Source: Lacisediminihabitans profunda (GTDB taxonomy: Bacteria > Actinomycetota > Actinomycetes > Actinomycetales > Microbacteriaceae). Taken from it: DNA of 64,000 nt. Position numbers and translations under genes: made by a program. The notes below the pieces were generated by a model. That model was given only the letters and a program-made list of their open reading frames with translations. It had not been told where the DNA came from and did no database searches. Shown one piece after another: positions 24,121-49,779 of this stretch. The number at the start of each line of letters is the position of its first letter. The stretch's first letter is position 1. Location: assembly GCF_008040105.1 (NCBI RefSeq), contig NZ_VRMG01000007.1, forward strand, positions 124,001 to 188,000, read 5' to 3'.

Positions 24121-24210
24121 TGGCGGAACCGGTGGGATTTGAACCCACGGTGGGCTCTCACCCACACAACTTTTCGAGAGTTGCACCTTCGGCCGCTCGG
24201 ACACGGTTCC
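24121..24210 (-). tRNA. tRNA-Ser (CGA), CCA encoded
   Basis: Read on the minus strand, GGAACCG pairs with CGGTTCC to form the acceptor stem, followed by G and an encoded CCA. The anticodon arm CAACT-CTCGAAA-AGTTG gives anticodon CGA. A long variable arm (GGGTGAGAGCCC) marks a class II tRNA, and the T arm contains GGTTCAAATCC. It decodes UCG. The 5' end is at 24210. Confidence 0.93.
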
Positions 24211-28171: not shown

Positions 28172-28681
28172 TTAGATCCGTTTGATCATCCGAGTGTTGC
28201 CGAGGGTGTTCGGCTTCACCCGCGCGAGGTCCAGGAATTCGGCGACACCCTCGTCGGGGGAACGCACGAGCTCGAGGTACACCGCCGGGTCGATCGGCTC
28301 CTCCGTCATCGGTTCGAAGCCGTGGCGGGTGAAGAACGGCACCTCGAAGGTGAGGCAGAACAGGCGGCTGAGCCCGAGGTCCCTGGCATCCGCCTCCAGC
28401 TGCTCCATCAACGCGTGGCCGACGCCCCGGTGCAACCACTCGTCGACGACGGCGAGCGTGCGGACCTCGGCCAGATCCTGCCAGATCACGTGGAGCGCTC
28501 CGCAGCCGATGACGTTTCCCGCCTCGTCTTCGGCGATGCGGAACTCCTGGATCGCCTCGTAGAAGACGACGGAGTCCTTGCCGAGCAGGATGCGGCGCTG
28601 AACGAGCGGTTCGACGAGGGCCTGGATGAACGGAACGTCACTGGTGCGGGCGGCTCGCACGGAAAACGCGGTCTCGGACAT
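28172..28681 (-). CDS. argA: Short actinobacterial N-acetylglutamate synthase (GNAT)
   Basis: A 169-residue GNAT acetyltransferase resembling the short ArgA of mycobacteria, which starts arginine synthesis by acetylating glutamate. It shows the GNAT core VRTLAVVDEWLHRGVGHALMEQL (acetyl-CoA loop R/Q-x-x-G-x-G/A variant) and LFCLTFEVPFFTRHGFEPM. The ATG is at 28679-28681. It is divergent from the lipoprotein gene and next to clpC, an arrangement common in actinobacteria. The name rests on family resemblance. Confidence 0.78.
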   Translation of the reverse strand: MSETAFSVRAARTSDVPFIQALVEPLVQRRILLGKDSVVFYEAIQEFRIAEDEAGNVIGCGALHVIWQDLAEVRTLAVVDEWLHRGVGHALMEQLEADARDLGLSRLFCLTFEVPFFTRHGFEPMTEEPIDPAVYLELVRSPDEGVAEFLDLARVKPNTLGNTRMIKRI

Positions 28682-28806
28682 GCTCGCTACTCTCGTTTCT
28701 CCGGAGGTTTCGCAGCACGCGGCTGCACTCCGGCCCGTACGAGCCTACCGACAGCCGACTGGACGCCGATCCTCCGGAGAAACGCGTGTTGCAGACGGGG
28801 AGGCGG

Positions 28807-32293: not shown

Positions 32294-32376
32294 CCGAAAA
32301 CGCAGGAGATCCGCCGCCAAACGCCTTTCCGCGCGGGATTCCCTGCCGGTCGATGGCGGATCTCCTGCGTTTTCGG
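32294..32376. repeat. Palindromic element, copy 1 (83 bp)
   Basis: The outer arms begin CCGAAAACGCAGGAGAT and extend to a perfect 22-bp inverted repeat (32294-32315 with 32355-32376) around a 39-base centre. It lies between clpC and the small membrane-protein gene. Related copies are at 33111-33207 and 47132-47215. Confidence 0.85.
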
Positions 32377-33110: not shown

Positions 33111-33207
33111 CCCGCATCCGAAAACGCAGGAGATTCGCCGGGAACTGCTGCATGGCGCGGCATTTCGCTTCGTTCGATGGAGGATCTCCTGCGTTTTCGG
33201 ATGCGGG
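33111..33207. repeat. Palindromic element, copy 2
   Basis: The core is 33118-33200 (83 bp), with arms CCGAAAACGCAGGAGAT and ATCTCCTGCGTTTTCGG. Symmetry extends outward another 7 bases (CCCGCAT/ATGCGGG). It lies between the YozG-like gene and the TetR gene. Its interior differs from copies 1 and 3 but shares TCGATGG near the right arm with copy 1. Confidence 0.85.
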
Positions 33208-46190: not shown

Positions 46191-47339
46191 TCATCGGCCC
46201 GCCCGCTCCCCTGCGCCGGGTTCGCCGCGGGTGGAGCGGAAATGCAGGAGCCCGCCCACGCGCTCGACGCTGACACCGGGAAGGTCGATGGCGGCCTGTC
46301 CGTGCCAGTCGGTCACGAGCTGCGCTACCTGCAGGGTCTGCGCGCGGCTGAGGCTCACGCCGAACTCGGCAAGCACGGTCCCGCGGATGATCCGCTGTCT
46401 CAGCGCTGGAGGATCGTGCTCGAGGGCTCGAGCCGGGAGCGAGATTCCCGCCTCGGCATGTTCGGCCAGCTCCTCGAGCTGGTCGGCGGCGAACTGGTCG
46501 AGGGCATCCGTGTCCTCCCGCGCCAGGTCCGCCGTGCGGGCCAGGGCCTCGGCGAAACCCGGACCGAGTTCGCGCTCGAGCATCGGGATCACGATCTTGC
46601 GCACGCGCACCCGCGAGAATCGTTCGTCGTCGTTCTGCGGGTCGTTCCACGGCTGCAGCCCGGAGTCGGCGCAGAACCGCCCGGTGGTCGCGCGGGTGAT
46701 GGCGAGCAGGGGACGCCGGTAGATCCCGGACACGACCGCCATGCCCTTGAGACTCCCGAGGCCGCTCCCGCGGGCCAGGCCGAGCAGCACAGATTCGGCC
46801 TGGTCGTCGAGCGTGTGGCCGAGCAGCACCGACGTCGCACCGGTCTCGCGGGCGGCCTCGGCGAGCGCGGCATACCGGGCGTCGCGGGCCGCGGCCTCGG
46901 GTCCGCCGGCCGTTCCCACGTCGACGGTCGTCACGATGACCGGCTCCAGCCCCAGATCGCGGGCCTGCCGGGCGGCGCGCGCCGCGACATCCGCCGAGCC
47001 CGGCTGGAGCCCGTGGTCCACGATCACCGCCCCGGCGCGGATGCCCGCCCGGCCCGCCTCGAAGGCCGTGGCGGCGGCGAGCGCGAGCGAGTCGGCCCCG
47101 CCGCTGAGTGCGACCAGCACGAGCGCCCCGACCGAAAACGCAGGAGATTCGCGGCCGGATGCCGGTGCCCGGCCCACAACGGCGGCGTTTCGTCCCGGAT
47201 CTCCTGCGTTTTCGGAAGGCGGGGCCCCGAGGGCGGAGGGCGGGGTCGCGTCGTCGGCGGGGGCTGCGGGCGGGAGGACCGCCCGCACCGCGCGTCGCAC
47301 ATCGGCGACCGCGGGCGTCAGTCTGGGCCGAGTCTCCAT
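46191..47339 (-). CDS. tilS: tRNA(Ile)-lysidine synthase with an inserted palindromic element
   Basis: A 382-residue PP-loop ATPase that modifies the CAU anticodon of tRNA-Ile to lysidine. The PP-loop SGGADSLALAAATAFEAG is present, with LLGHTLDDQAESVLLGLARG (HxxDD-type motif) and the TilS substrate-binding domain. The PP-loop begins unusually far in, near residue 79. The preceding stretch includes SENAGDPGRNAAVVGRAPAS and GRESPAFS, encoded by the palindromic repeat at 47132-47215. The repeat adds 28 codons in frame in an exposed N-terminal segment, so the enzyme is probably still functional. Confidence 0.9.
   Translation of the reverse strand: METRPRLTPAVADVRRAVRAVLPPAAPADDATPPSALGAPPSENAGDPGRNAAVVGRAPASGRESPAFSVGALVLVALSGGADSLALAAATAFEAGRAGIRAGAVIVDHGLQPGSADVAARAARQARDLGLEPVIVTTVDVGTAGGPEAAARDARYAALAEAARETGATSVLLGHTLDDQAESVLLGLARGSGLGSLKGMAVVSGIYRRPLLAITRATTGRFCADSGLQPWNDPQNDDERFSRVRVRKIVIPMLERELGPGFAEALARTADLAREDTDALDQFAADQLEELAEHAEAGISLPARALEHDPPALRQRIIRGTVLAEFGVSLSRAQTLQVAQLVTDWHGQAAIDLPGVSVERVGGLLHFRSTRGEPGAGERAGR
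47132..47215. repeat. Palindromic element, copy 3, inside tilS (84 bp)
   Basis: Arms CCGAAAACGCAGGAGAT and ATCTCCTGCGTTTTCGG (17 bp, perfect) enclose 50 bases. Unlike the 83-bp intergenic copies, this one is 84 bp, exactly 28 codons, and keeps the tilS frame open. It lies just upstream of the PP-loop codons. Confidence 0.88.
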
Positions 47340-49487: not shown

Positions 49488-49560
49488 GGCCCCATCGTTT
49501 AGTGGCCTAGGACGGCGCCCTTTCACGGCGTTAACACGGGTTCGAATCCCGTTGGGGTCA
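49488..49560 (+). tRNA. tRNA-Glu (TTC)
   Basis: Acceptor GGCCCCA pairs with TGGGGTC (one G-T pair). The anticodon loop CCTTTCA gives anticodon TTC. The T arm GGGTTCGAATCCC is standard. CCA is not encoded. It is the first of three tRNA genes in a row. Confidence 0.93.
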
Positions 49561-49573
49561 CGAAACATAGCTA

Positions 49574-49647
49574 GGCCCTGTAGCGCAGTTGGTTAGCGCG
49601 CCGCCCTGTCACGGCGGAGGTCGCCGGTTCAAGTCCGGTCAGGGTCG
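49574..49647 (+). tRNA. tRNA-Asp (GTC)
   Basis: Acceptor GGCCCTG pairs with CAGGGTC. The anticodon loop CCTGTCA gives GTC, and the T arm contains GGTTCAAGTCC. Discriminator G at 49647, no encoded CCA. It lies 13 bases after tRNA-Glu, probably one transcript. Confidence 0.93.
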
Positions 49648-49648
49648 C

Positions 49649-49690
49649 AAGGCACGGTCATCTCTCGCCAGACGGCCGTGCCTTCTTGTA
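49649..49690 (+). terminator. Terminator after tRNA-Glu/tRNA-Asp
   Basis: AAGGCACGG pairs with CCGTGCCTT across 18 bases and is followed by CTTGT. It directly follows tRNA-Asp. Confidence 0.6.
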
Positions 49691-49706
49691 TAACTAAATA
49701 CGACAA

Positions 49707-49779
49707 GGCTCTGTAGCTCAGTTGGTAGAGCGTTCGACTGAAAATCGAAAGGTCACCGGATCGACGCCGGTCGGAGCCA
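49707..49779 (+). tRNA. tRNA-Phe (GAA)
   Basis: Acceptor GGCTCTG pairs with CGGAGCC (one G-T pair). The anticodon stem-loop CGACTGAAAATCG gives GAA. Discriminator A at 49779, no full CCA encoded. It is followed at once by a strong terminator. Confidence 0.93.

Follow-up and report, generated by a model that had tools for sequence, protein, structure and literature searches.

An in-frame palindrome in tilS of Lacisediminihabitans profunda as a probable orphan of a two-part mobile system with an AbiEi-like/Vsr-fold partner

The tilS gene of Lacisediminihabitans profunda contains a palindromic repeat inserted in frame, and we read this insert, with a probability of about 0.6, as an orphan copy of a two-part mobile system that resembles REPIN/RAYT but is built on an unrelated enzyme. 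It lies in a window of 64,000 nucleotides, a term by which we mean the whole stretch of DNA that was analyzed. An earlier note on this DNA had described three palindromes with the same arms, 83, 83, and 84 bp in length, the last of them forming 28 stop-free codons of tilS just before the PP-loop, and this description holds. What that reading missed is the partner gene, which encodes an AbiEi-like/Vsr-fold protein and is located between two palindromes of its own arm type (referred to below as the nuclease gene, after its predicted fold). The features of the window that matter here are the following:

46191..47339, minus strand: tilS (tRNA-Ile lysidine synthase), host of the palindrome, from its ORF and Pfam matches
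47132..47215: type-1 palindrome in tilS, 84 bp, equal to 28 codons that are free of stops in the tilS frame
47132..47148, plus strand: left arm CCGAAAACGCAGGAGAT of the tilS palindrome
47199..47215, minus strand: right arm of the tilS palindrome, an exact inverted copy
47149..47198: core of the tilS palindrome, 50 bp, which differs among copies
32294..32376: type-1 palindrome, intergenic, 83 bp
33118..33200: type-1 palindrome, intergenic, 83 bp
28692..28786: fourth palindrome, with a second arm type, CTCGTTTCTCCGGAGGTT, found by a whole-window inverted-repeat scan

The 17-bp arm CCGAAAACGCAGGAGAT, which defines type 1, is present in six exact copies in the window, forming three inverted pairs, where chance would give 0.19 matches with up to 3 mismatches. 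Compared with shuffles, the single-stranded DNA folds of these palindromes reach z values of -5.7 (47132–47215), -7.6 (32294–32376), and -6.6 (33118–33200). A search of the whole genome (G000) with the arm, as the earlier note had suggested, uncovered further copies: allowing up to 2 mismatches, it gave 39 matches (0 in a backward-arm control), which by hand count from the match list make up 15 inverted pairs (3 in the window and 12 elsewhere) and 9 unpaired sites. The arms of the fourth palindrome match those of the palindromes that flank a nuclease-like gene elsewhere in the same genome (G000:C65:198665-199621); this palindrome is situated directly upstream of an acetyltransferase-like ORF on the minus strand (28172–28681), which we take to be argA-like. 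The window also carries tRNA genes, three in a row at 49488–49779 and one at 24124–24210, and these four tRNAs were the only matches in the window at Rfam gathering thresholds. An RNA-level hairpin was considered as the conserved feature of the palindromes and rejected, half-to-half identity of the cores being only modestly above between-element identity, and this at some positions.

The tilS ORF matches PF01171 (ATP_bind_3, 1.6e-34) and PF09179 (TilS, 1.4e-6), with both the PP-loop and the substrate-binding domains present. The insert, translated without a stop as ...SENAGDPGRNAAVVGRAPASGRESPAFS..., is placed between the N-terminal helix and the PP-loop and ends five codons before LVALSGG. 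Most of the tilS relatives examined have a short linker without the segment, which bears out the earlier view that repeat DNA has here become protein within a dispensable N-terminal linker, and the same is seen in two further genes: mutM of G000 and G005 has an in-frame palindrome in a loop of the N-terminal MutM/Fpg domain, and smc of G007 and G002 has an in-frame one as well. The gap that the earlier note expected in an alignment of TilS from relatives is thus found in most of them, but in the congeners G003 and G007 and in G035 and G033, which belong to other genera, the same linker holds a palindrome with different arms. These arms are of type 1 in G000, CGAAATGCAGGAC in G003 and G007, and GGAAACTCAGGAG in G035, whereas the linker of G033 has repeated GGAAATTCAGGAG arms and one right arm of the GGAAACTCAGGAG kind, so that the palindromes of tilS comprise four arm types across three genera. 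The arm types of the tilS linkers also adjoin nuclease genes in the same genomes, on one side at loci L181, L198, and L212 and on both sides at L175 and L188. Since both arms carry the same variant in G000, G003, G007, and G035, separate insertions by different units appear more likely than the divergence of a single insert. In the G033 gene (L059), the N-terminal linker contains three left arms in near-tandem repeats together with several right arms, which suggests growth through duplication of the repeat. A further candidate insertion, which we do not claim, is located in a sugar-kinase ORF (L023).

Type-1 palindromes form a family. Exact pairs of 15-bp arms are found in 7 of 398 genomes of the same bacterial family, pairs with slightly shorter arms in 10 of the 398, and arms of the AAACTCAGGAG form in 6/299 genomes, from six genera; among the named records with such a type-1 pair are MAGs of Rhodoglobus, Lacisediminihabitans, Frigoribacterium, and Salinibacterium, and on these we base our assignment of the bacterial family to Microbacteriaceae. 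Copy length is 82 or 83 bp in 60 of 65 distinct copies, whose alignment combines almost invariant arms with variable cores. Steps of 10 bp in element length from one genus to the next were also considered and are not claimed, because the spans beside nucleases range widely. Among the matches listed, the number of strict type-1 pairs per congener genome varies from 0 to 45. At the site of 32294, an element occupies the same place by the neighboring gene in G002, G003, G007, and G008, and none was seen in G005, G011, G012, G001, and G004, where the DNA beyond the neighboring gene is mostly unrelated; for the site at 33118–33200, the right flank is shared with an element of G005. Both G008 and G004 have their own core subfamilies, recognizable by eye, with core identities within the genome of 0.64 (G008, 10 copies) and 0.70 (G004, 3 copies) against 0.54 between genomes. 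The earlier note had called the palindrome mobile, and the comparison of genomes strongly suggests as much, through variable occupancy and the differing arm types in tilS, although movement itself was not observed. An exact occupied/empty pair was not recovered, both flanks being found in many relatives with linkers too diverged to fix the boundary, and among 70 copies, over 35 combinations of offset and length, there was no excess of target duplications, the sole signal coming from one copy (5 bp, offset 2).

Several individual copies deserve a brief description. Closely spaced pairs of palindromes, with starts 114–147 bp apart and with different or related cores, are found at L092 (1714–1905), G004:C17:174846-175067, and L124 (1361–1578), which suggests local duplication or repeated insertion. 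Lone perfect arms with no recognizable partner arm are found in L003, L005, and L016 (about 1501) and are possibly decayed copies. The 115-kb contig JAODAQ010000028.1 of a Rhodoglobus MAG (L081, L090, L098, L104) has at least eight palindromes in the stretches examined and a nuclease unit at the 32–33 kb position. An imperfect palindrome of the same span at L098 2843–2921 is located in an apparent gyrA C-terminal domain and was excluded as a chance match; we presume this region to be gyrA-like and that of L022 to be purK-like.

The contrast between arms and cores can be followed at sites where flanking DNA is shared. Among 31 pairs of copies with a matching flank on at least one side (5 of 36 pairs, from G064 or G083 and with other arm types, were excluded), the arms are identical at 25–30 of 30 positions and core identity ranges from 0.38 to 0.84, being no higher than the level of unrelated copies (0.495, sd 0.088) plus one sd in 23 of the 31. 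Four "vertical" pairs that align throughout, which were chosen post hoc by core identity of at least 0.65 and alignment of both flanks, differ at 3/120 arm positions vs 51/196 core positions (P 7e-9), and when all ten pairs with both flank scores of at least 50 are summed by hand, the differences amount to 11/300 in arms and 190/487 in cores. The arms have been kept while the cores diverged, and they must therefore be constrained or repeatedly renewed, a pattern that neutral fossils of a mobile element would hardly be expected to show at shared sites.

The cores, variable as they are in letters, have a common periodicity. Across 70 of them, A/T content follows a 10-bp period (z=21), which is absent from 139 flank windows (z 0). 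For this test and for that of target duplications, 70 of 77 elements were used, leaving aside three from G064, one from G076, and one from G083, which are of other types, as well as L022 and L098:2843, which were judged to be chance matches. The signal is present in the G000 cores alone (z about 6) and also in RYN_70, and it is weaker for unrelated arm types (z 4–5 at 10.5–11 bp); for the non-type-1 elements beside nucleases it is less specific, with z values of 4.2 at 10.5 bp and 4.7 at 11 bp but also 2.5 at 8 bp. Sites bent around a protein are typically marked by phased A/T. At one phase position of the cores AAA, TTT, AAT, ATT, and TAA are all found, and this variety argues for shape, rather than a common letter string, as the basis of the phasing, partial common ancestry being the alternative.

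The analysis of orthologous sites is also what brought the partner gene to light, as in G005, G008, G034, RYN_77, and RYN_70 one gene is located between two palindromes, and the same layout recurs in G116, which belongs to another genus, at about 28–30% protein identity. At a lenient E of 0.1, 30 proteins of this kind gave Pfam matches to AbiEi_4 in 16 cases, to DUF559 in 19, and to REase_MTES_1575 in 18, and PADLOC matches are mostly to AbiEi models. An AlphaFold2 model built from 30 family members (pLDDT 88, pTM 0.81) has only two PDB matches at E <=0.001, the AbiEi antitoxin 6y8q (7.9e-6) and, for the homing endonuclease I-Bth0305I, its catalytic domain (3r3p, 4.6e-4); 3hrl and Vsr (1cw0/1vsr) follow with weaker values of 0.02–0.04 (0.03–0.04 for Vsr itself), and a profile search against PDB sequences agrees (3hrl 5.7e-9, 3r3p 0.0024). 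As modeled, the protein of about 300 residues is composed of an N-terminal AbiEi-like winged-helix half and a C-terminal half with the Vsr/EDxHD nuclease fold. In the alignment of 30 proteins (28 of the 30 loci L164–L193, without L173 and L185, plus L105 and L081), E192 and D219 do not vary, and E229 and D231 hardly vary. Carriage by phages or plasmids was considered and dropped: tblastn with a single query, the G005 protein, gave no match in either, and no viral contig was confirmed. In G011, nuclease homologues with equal scores are found on different contigs (L194/L192 and L214/L215), and their duplication is uncertain because of 12% contamination.

The association between gene and palindromes was quantified in 22 genomes, all of which were positive in a homologue search at E <=1e-8; the 71 matches correspond to 70 loci after one split gene was merged, and all were examined. 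Palindromes with the same arm, defined by at least 11 matching bases, are present on both sides of the gene at 40 of the 70 loci, whereas in 400 draws resampled from these loci, with the right-hand arms reversed, not one passed, and sliding windows over 29 tilS loci passed in 1 of 370 cases. An earlier and stricter rule had given 22/32 loci vs 2/660 random placements, and at those 22 loci the upstream palindrome ends 91–119 bp before the start codon in 17 cases, and in 15 the start of the downstream palindrome falls within the 3' end of the ORF. Several of the 30 loci that fail the both-sides test are fragments or contig ends, and some are full-length remote paralogues without palindromes (L183, L184, L207, L209).

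Arms differ strongly between protein types (for example CGAAAACGCAGGAG, CGGAAATTCAGGAC, CCGAAATCCATGCATTC, GTTTCTCCGGAGG, and CAACGGATTTCACGGA), and their similarity tracks protein identity (28 loci, arms entered by hand, Mantel r=0.70, 0/5000). When left and right zones were compared across loci, a shared arm was found in 147 of 180 comparisons at protein identities of at least 45%, in 11/106 at 35–45%, and in 17/470 below 35%.

All 7 genomes in which a type-1 nuclease is present have type-1 pairs, also at a distance from the gene, and among the 15 genomes without one (two of which, G001 at 81% and G010 at 64%, are incomplete) strict pairs occur in three (P 0.0007) and, by a looser count, pairs occur in five (P 0.005); these are Fisher tests on counts entered by hand, and the co-occurrence is partly built in, because the driver gene brings its own two palindromes. 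In G000, which is 98.97% complete, no type-1 nuclease was detected despite its 15 type-1 pairs with near-perfect arms, and the type-1 palindromes there therefore count as orphans, their arms being compatible with a host function as well. The same genome does have three units of other types (C106:361128, C65:198665, and C65:100318), with open frames of 317–357 aa. As for the position of orphans relative to the gene of their arm type, all four in G083 are 7–31 kb away (P 2e-7), the single one in G116 is 12 kb away, 6/7 in G035 are on the contig (228 kb out of 3.2 Mb) that carries the split nuclease gene, and 3/4 in G064 are on the nuclease contig. G005 has, among the matches listed, six further arm sites or pairs, one of them at 16 kb and the rest at about 0.9–1.7 Mb from the type-1 gene; copies in G004 are scattered over many contigs, and the single orphans of G145 and G076 are of an arm type with no nuclease seen nearby. 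Dispersal is thus local in some genomes and not in general. The idea of chromosome-organizing sites near oriC or the terminus was dropped on inspection (dnaA was located in 10 genomes), as the G083 cluster is roughly opposite dnaA but the G005 and G004 copies are spread.

Taken as a mechanism, the two-part system would work as follows. The driver would be the gene for the AbiEi-like/Vsr-fold protein of about 300 aa, set between two palindromes of roughly 75–110 bp; upstream, the distance to the start codon is usually about 105 bp, and the downstream palindrome often overlaps the ORF at its 3' end. The winged-helix half may recognize the arms as inverted half-sites, with the core constrained mainly in its length and its bendability (A/T phased at 10–10.5 bp). 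The protein would bend the palindrome into a complex, the phased core permitting it to be wrapped, and the nuclease half would nick or cut, after which the palindrome would be copied elsewhere without target duplication; in several genomes new copies would land mostly near the gene. Each protein type would be matched to one arm sequence of its own, in the way that RAYTs are matched to REPs, and copies in protein linkers would survive where the reading frame is preserved by the insertion as a whole, which is the case in tilS, mutM, and smc. Of this picture, the palindrome family with its conserved arms and phased cores, the association with the gene, the matching of arms to proteins, the in-frame insertions, and the clustering in some genomes are observed, and the binding, cutting, and copying or mobilization of DNA by this protein are what we infer.

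The main rival to this mechanism holds that the AbiEi-like protein is a DNA-bending repressor of its own gene and that the orphans are its operators throughout the genome, or sites that structure the chromosome, maintained through selection on the host. It accounts well for the conservation of the arms (25–30 of 30 positions at flank-matched sites, where 23/31 cores are near or below the level of unrelated copies), and it would also agree with the upstream palindrome 91–119 bp before the start in 17/22 loci, with the helical phasing of the cores, and with the scattered orphans of G005 and G004; moreover, the portions available of PMC7319586 describe AbiEi as binding inverted repeats in its own promoter and bending the DNA. 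We nevertheless consider it unlikely, as a repressor has no need of a conserved nuclease half (E192 and D219 invariant) and does not explain palindromes that are also downstream of the gene and within the coding sequences of tilS, mutM, and smc. The variation in strict pairs among congeners, from 0 to 45 among the matches listed, and the core subfamilies specific to G008 and G004, which look like recent spread, also speak against it. Quite improbable in our judgment is a selfish or defense system in which the palindromes would mark self or restrain the nuclease, so that loss of an arm would expose the chromosome to cutting: the predicted nuclease fold fits it, and a copy-by-copy enforcement of arms would explain the 3/120 arm changes vs 51/196 core changes, but type-1 palindromes are kept in G000, G001, and G003, where no type-1 nuclease was found, and the PADLOC matches, as noted above, are mostly to AbiEi models.

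We give very little credence to an ordinary MITE of a DDE transposon or a REPIN of a RAYT transposase, to which the inverted arms, the near-fixed length, the dispersed copies, and a spacer that is variable, as REPIN spacers are in the accessible part of PMC8049555, would otherwise point. The 70 copies have no excess of target duplications, unlike what a DDE-transposon MITE would leave, and their cores are not conserved as in a young MITE. Membership of REPIN/RAYT by homology was likewise rejected, the Y1/HUH transposase domain (Y1_Tnp, PF01797) being present in 0/13 genomes of the genus and in 3/60 relatives, none of them with type-1 palindromes. The view of the segment as normal, conserved TilS sequence with a coincidental repeat is refuted by the 39 arm sites in the genome vs 0 in the control and by the several tilS relatives without the segment.

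REPIN/RAYT nevertheless is, by analogy, the closest working counterpart of the two-part system proposed here, which is not a member of it. As far as the available excerpts of PMC8049555 and PMC8266576 go, REPIN/RAYT comprises a partner gene with its own palindromes and dispersed, non-autonomous inverted doublets in which the arms are conserved and the spacer varies, and in some cases REPs cluster near a recently arrived partner gene. The present system likewise has two inverted conserved arms, a variable spacer, a near-fixed length, and a partner gene accompanied by its own palindromes (40/70 loci), but that partner is non-homologous, an AbiEi-like/Vsr-fold protein in place of an HUH tyrosine transposase, the consensus arm CCGAAAACGCAGGAGAT is without a GTAG tag (by inspection, type 1 only), and the cores have helical A/T phasing. 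With regard to a possible autonomous parent of the MITE type, the linked gene sits between two complete palindromes, and among the arm matches listed no long element bounded by single arms was noticed.

The earlier note had likened the tilS insert to Rickettsia palindromic elements, a likeness that stands as an analogy for the in-frame insertion into coding genes (tilS, mutM, smc) and fails for the cores. In Rickettsia palindromic elements the whole element is conserved in sequence within a family, unlike here, where only the arms are conserved (23/31 cores near or below the unrelated level), a partner gene exists, and coding is shown for a minority of copies. Their in-frame insertion in unrelated genes is described in the part of PMC10969869 available to us. 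With regard to the protein, the N-terminal half resembles AbiEi antitoxins of type IV toxin-antitoxin systems (match to 6y8q; AbiEi_4 in 16/30 proteins) and differs from them in the C-terminal half, a nuclease fold in the model. That fold resembles the EDxHD homing endonuclease I-Bth0305I and Vsr; unlike these, the present protein is linked to palindromes and, as far as searched, is not in an intron or phage. It also resembles the MTES_1575-type Vsr REase domain, Pfam REase_MTES_1575 being matched by 18/30 proteins at E <=0.1; the MTES_1575 protein described in the accessible text of PMC3710099 is a large multidomain HEPN/helicase protein, with no palindromes mentioned there.

On balance, we lean towards regarding these units as an undescribed class of mobile DNA in Microbacteriaceae, in which AbiEi-like/Vsr-fold proteins, having diversified into many types within this one bacterial family, would each recognize and disperse their own bent palindrome, arms and protein diversifying together, and in which linkers would have accepted copies in frame repeatedly, with tilS invaded separately by four arm types. 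Within the open-access literature, as far as its available text goes and with most subscription journals outside it, we found no published link of DUF559, AbiEi, or Vsr proteins to dispersed palindromes. If the proposal is true, the dispersal of palindromes by a partner enzyme arose at least twice: REPINs rely on HUH transposases, and the present system would rely on an enzyme like a homing endonuclease, joined to a DNA-binding half of antitoxin type. It could also explain a set of AbiEi/DUF559-type proteins that lack a known function. The matched series of proteins and arms would then be material for reading a DNA-recognition code, and the insertions in tilS, mutM, and smc would be a clear-cut example of the conversion of mobile DNA into protein sequence within housekeeping genes.
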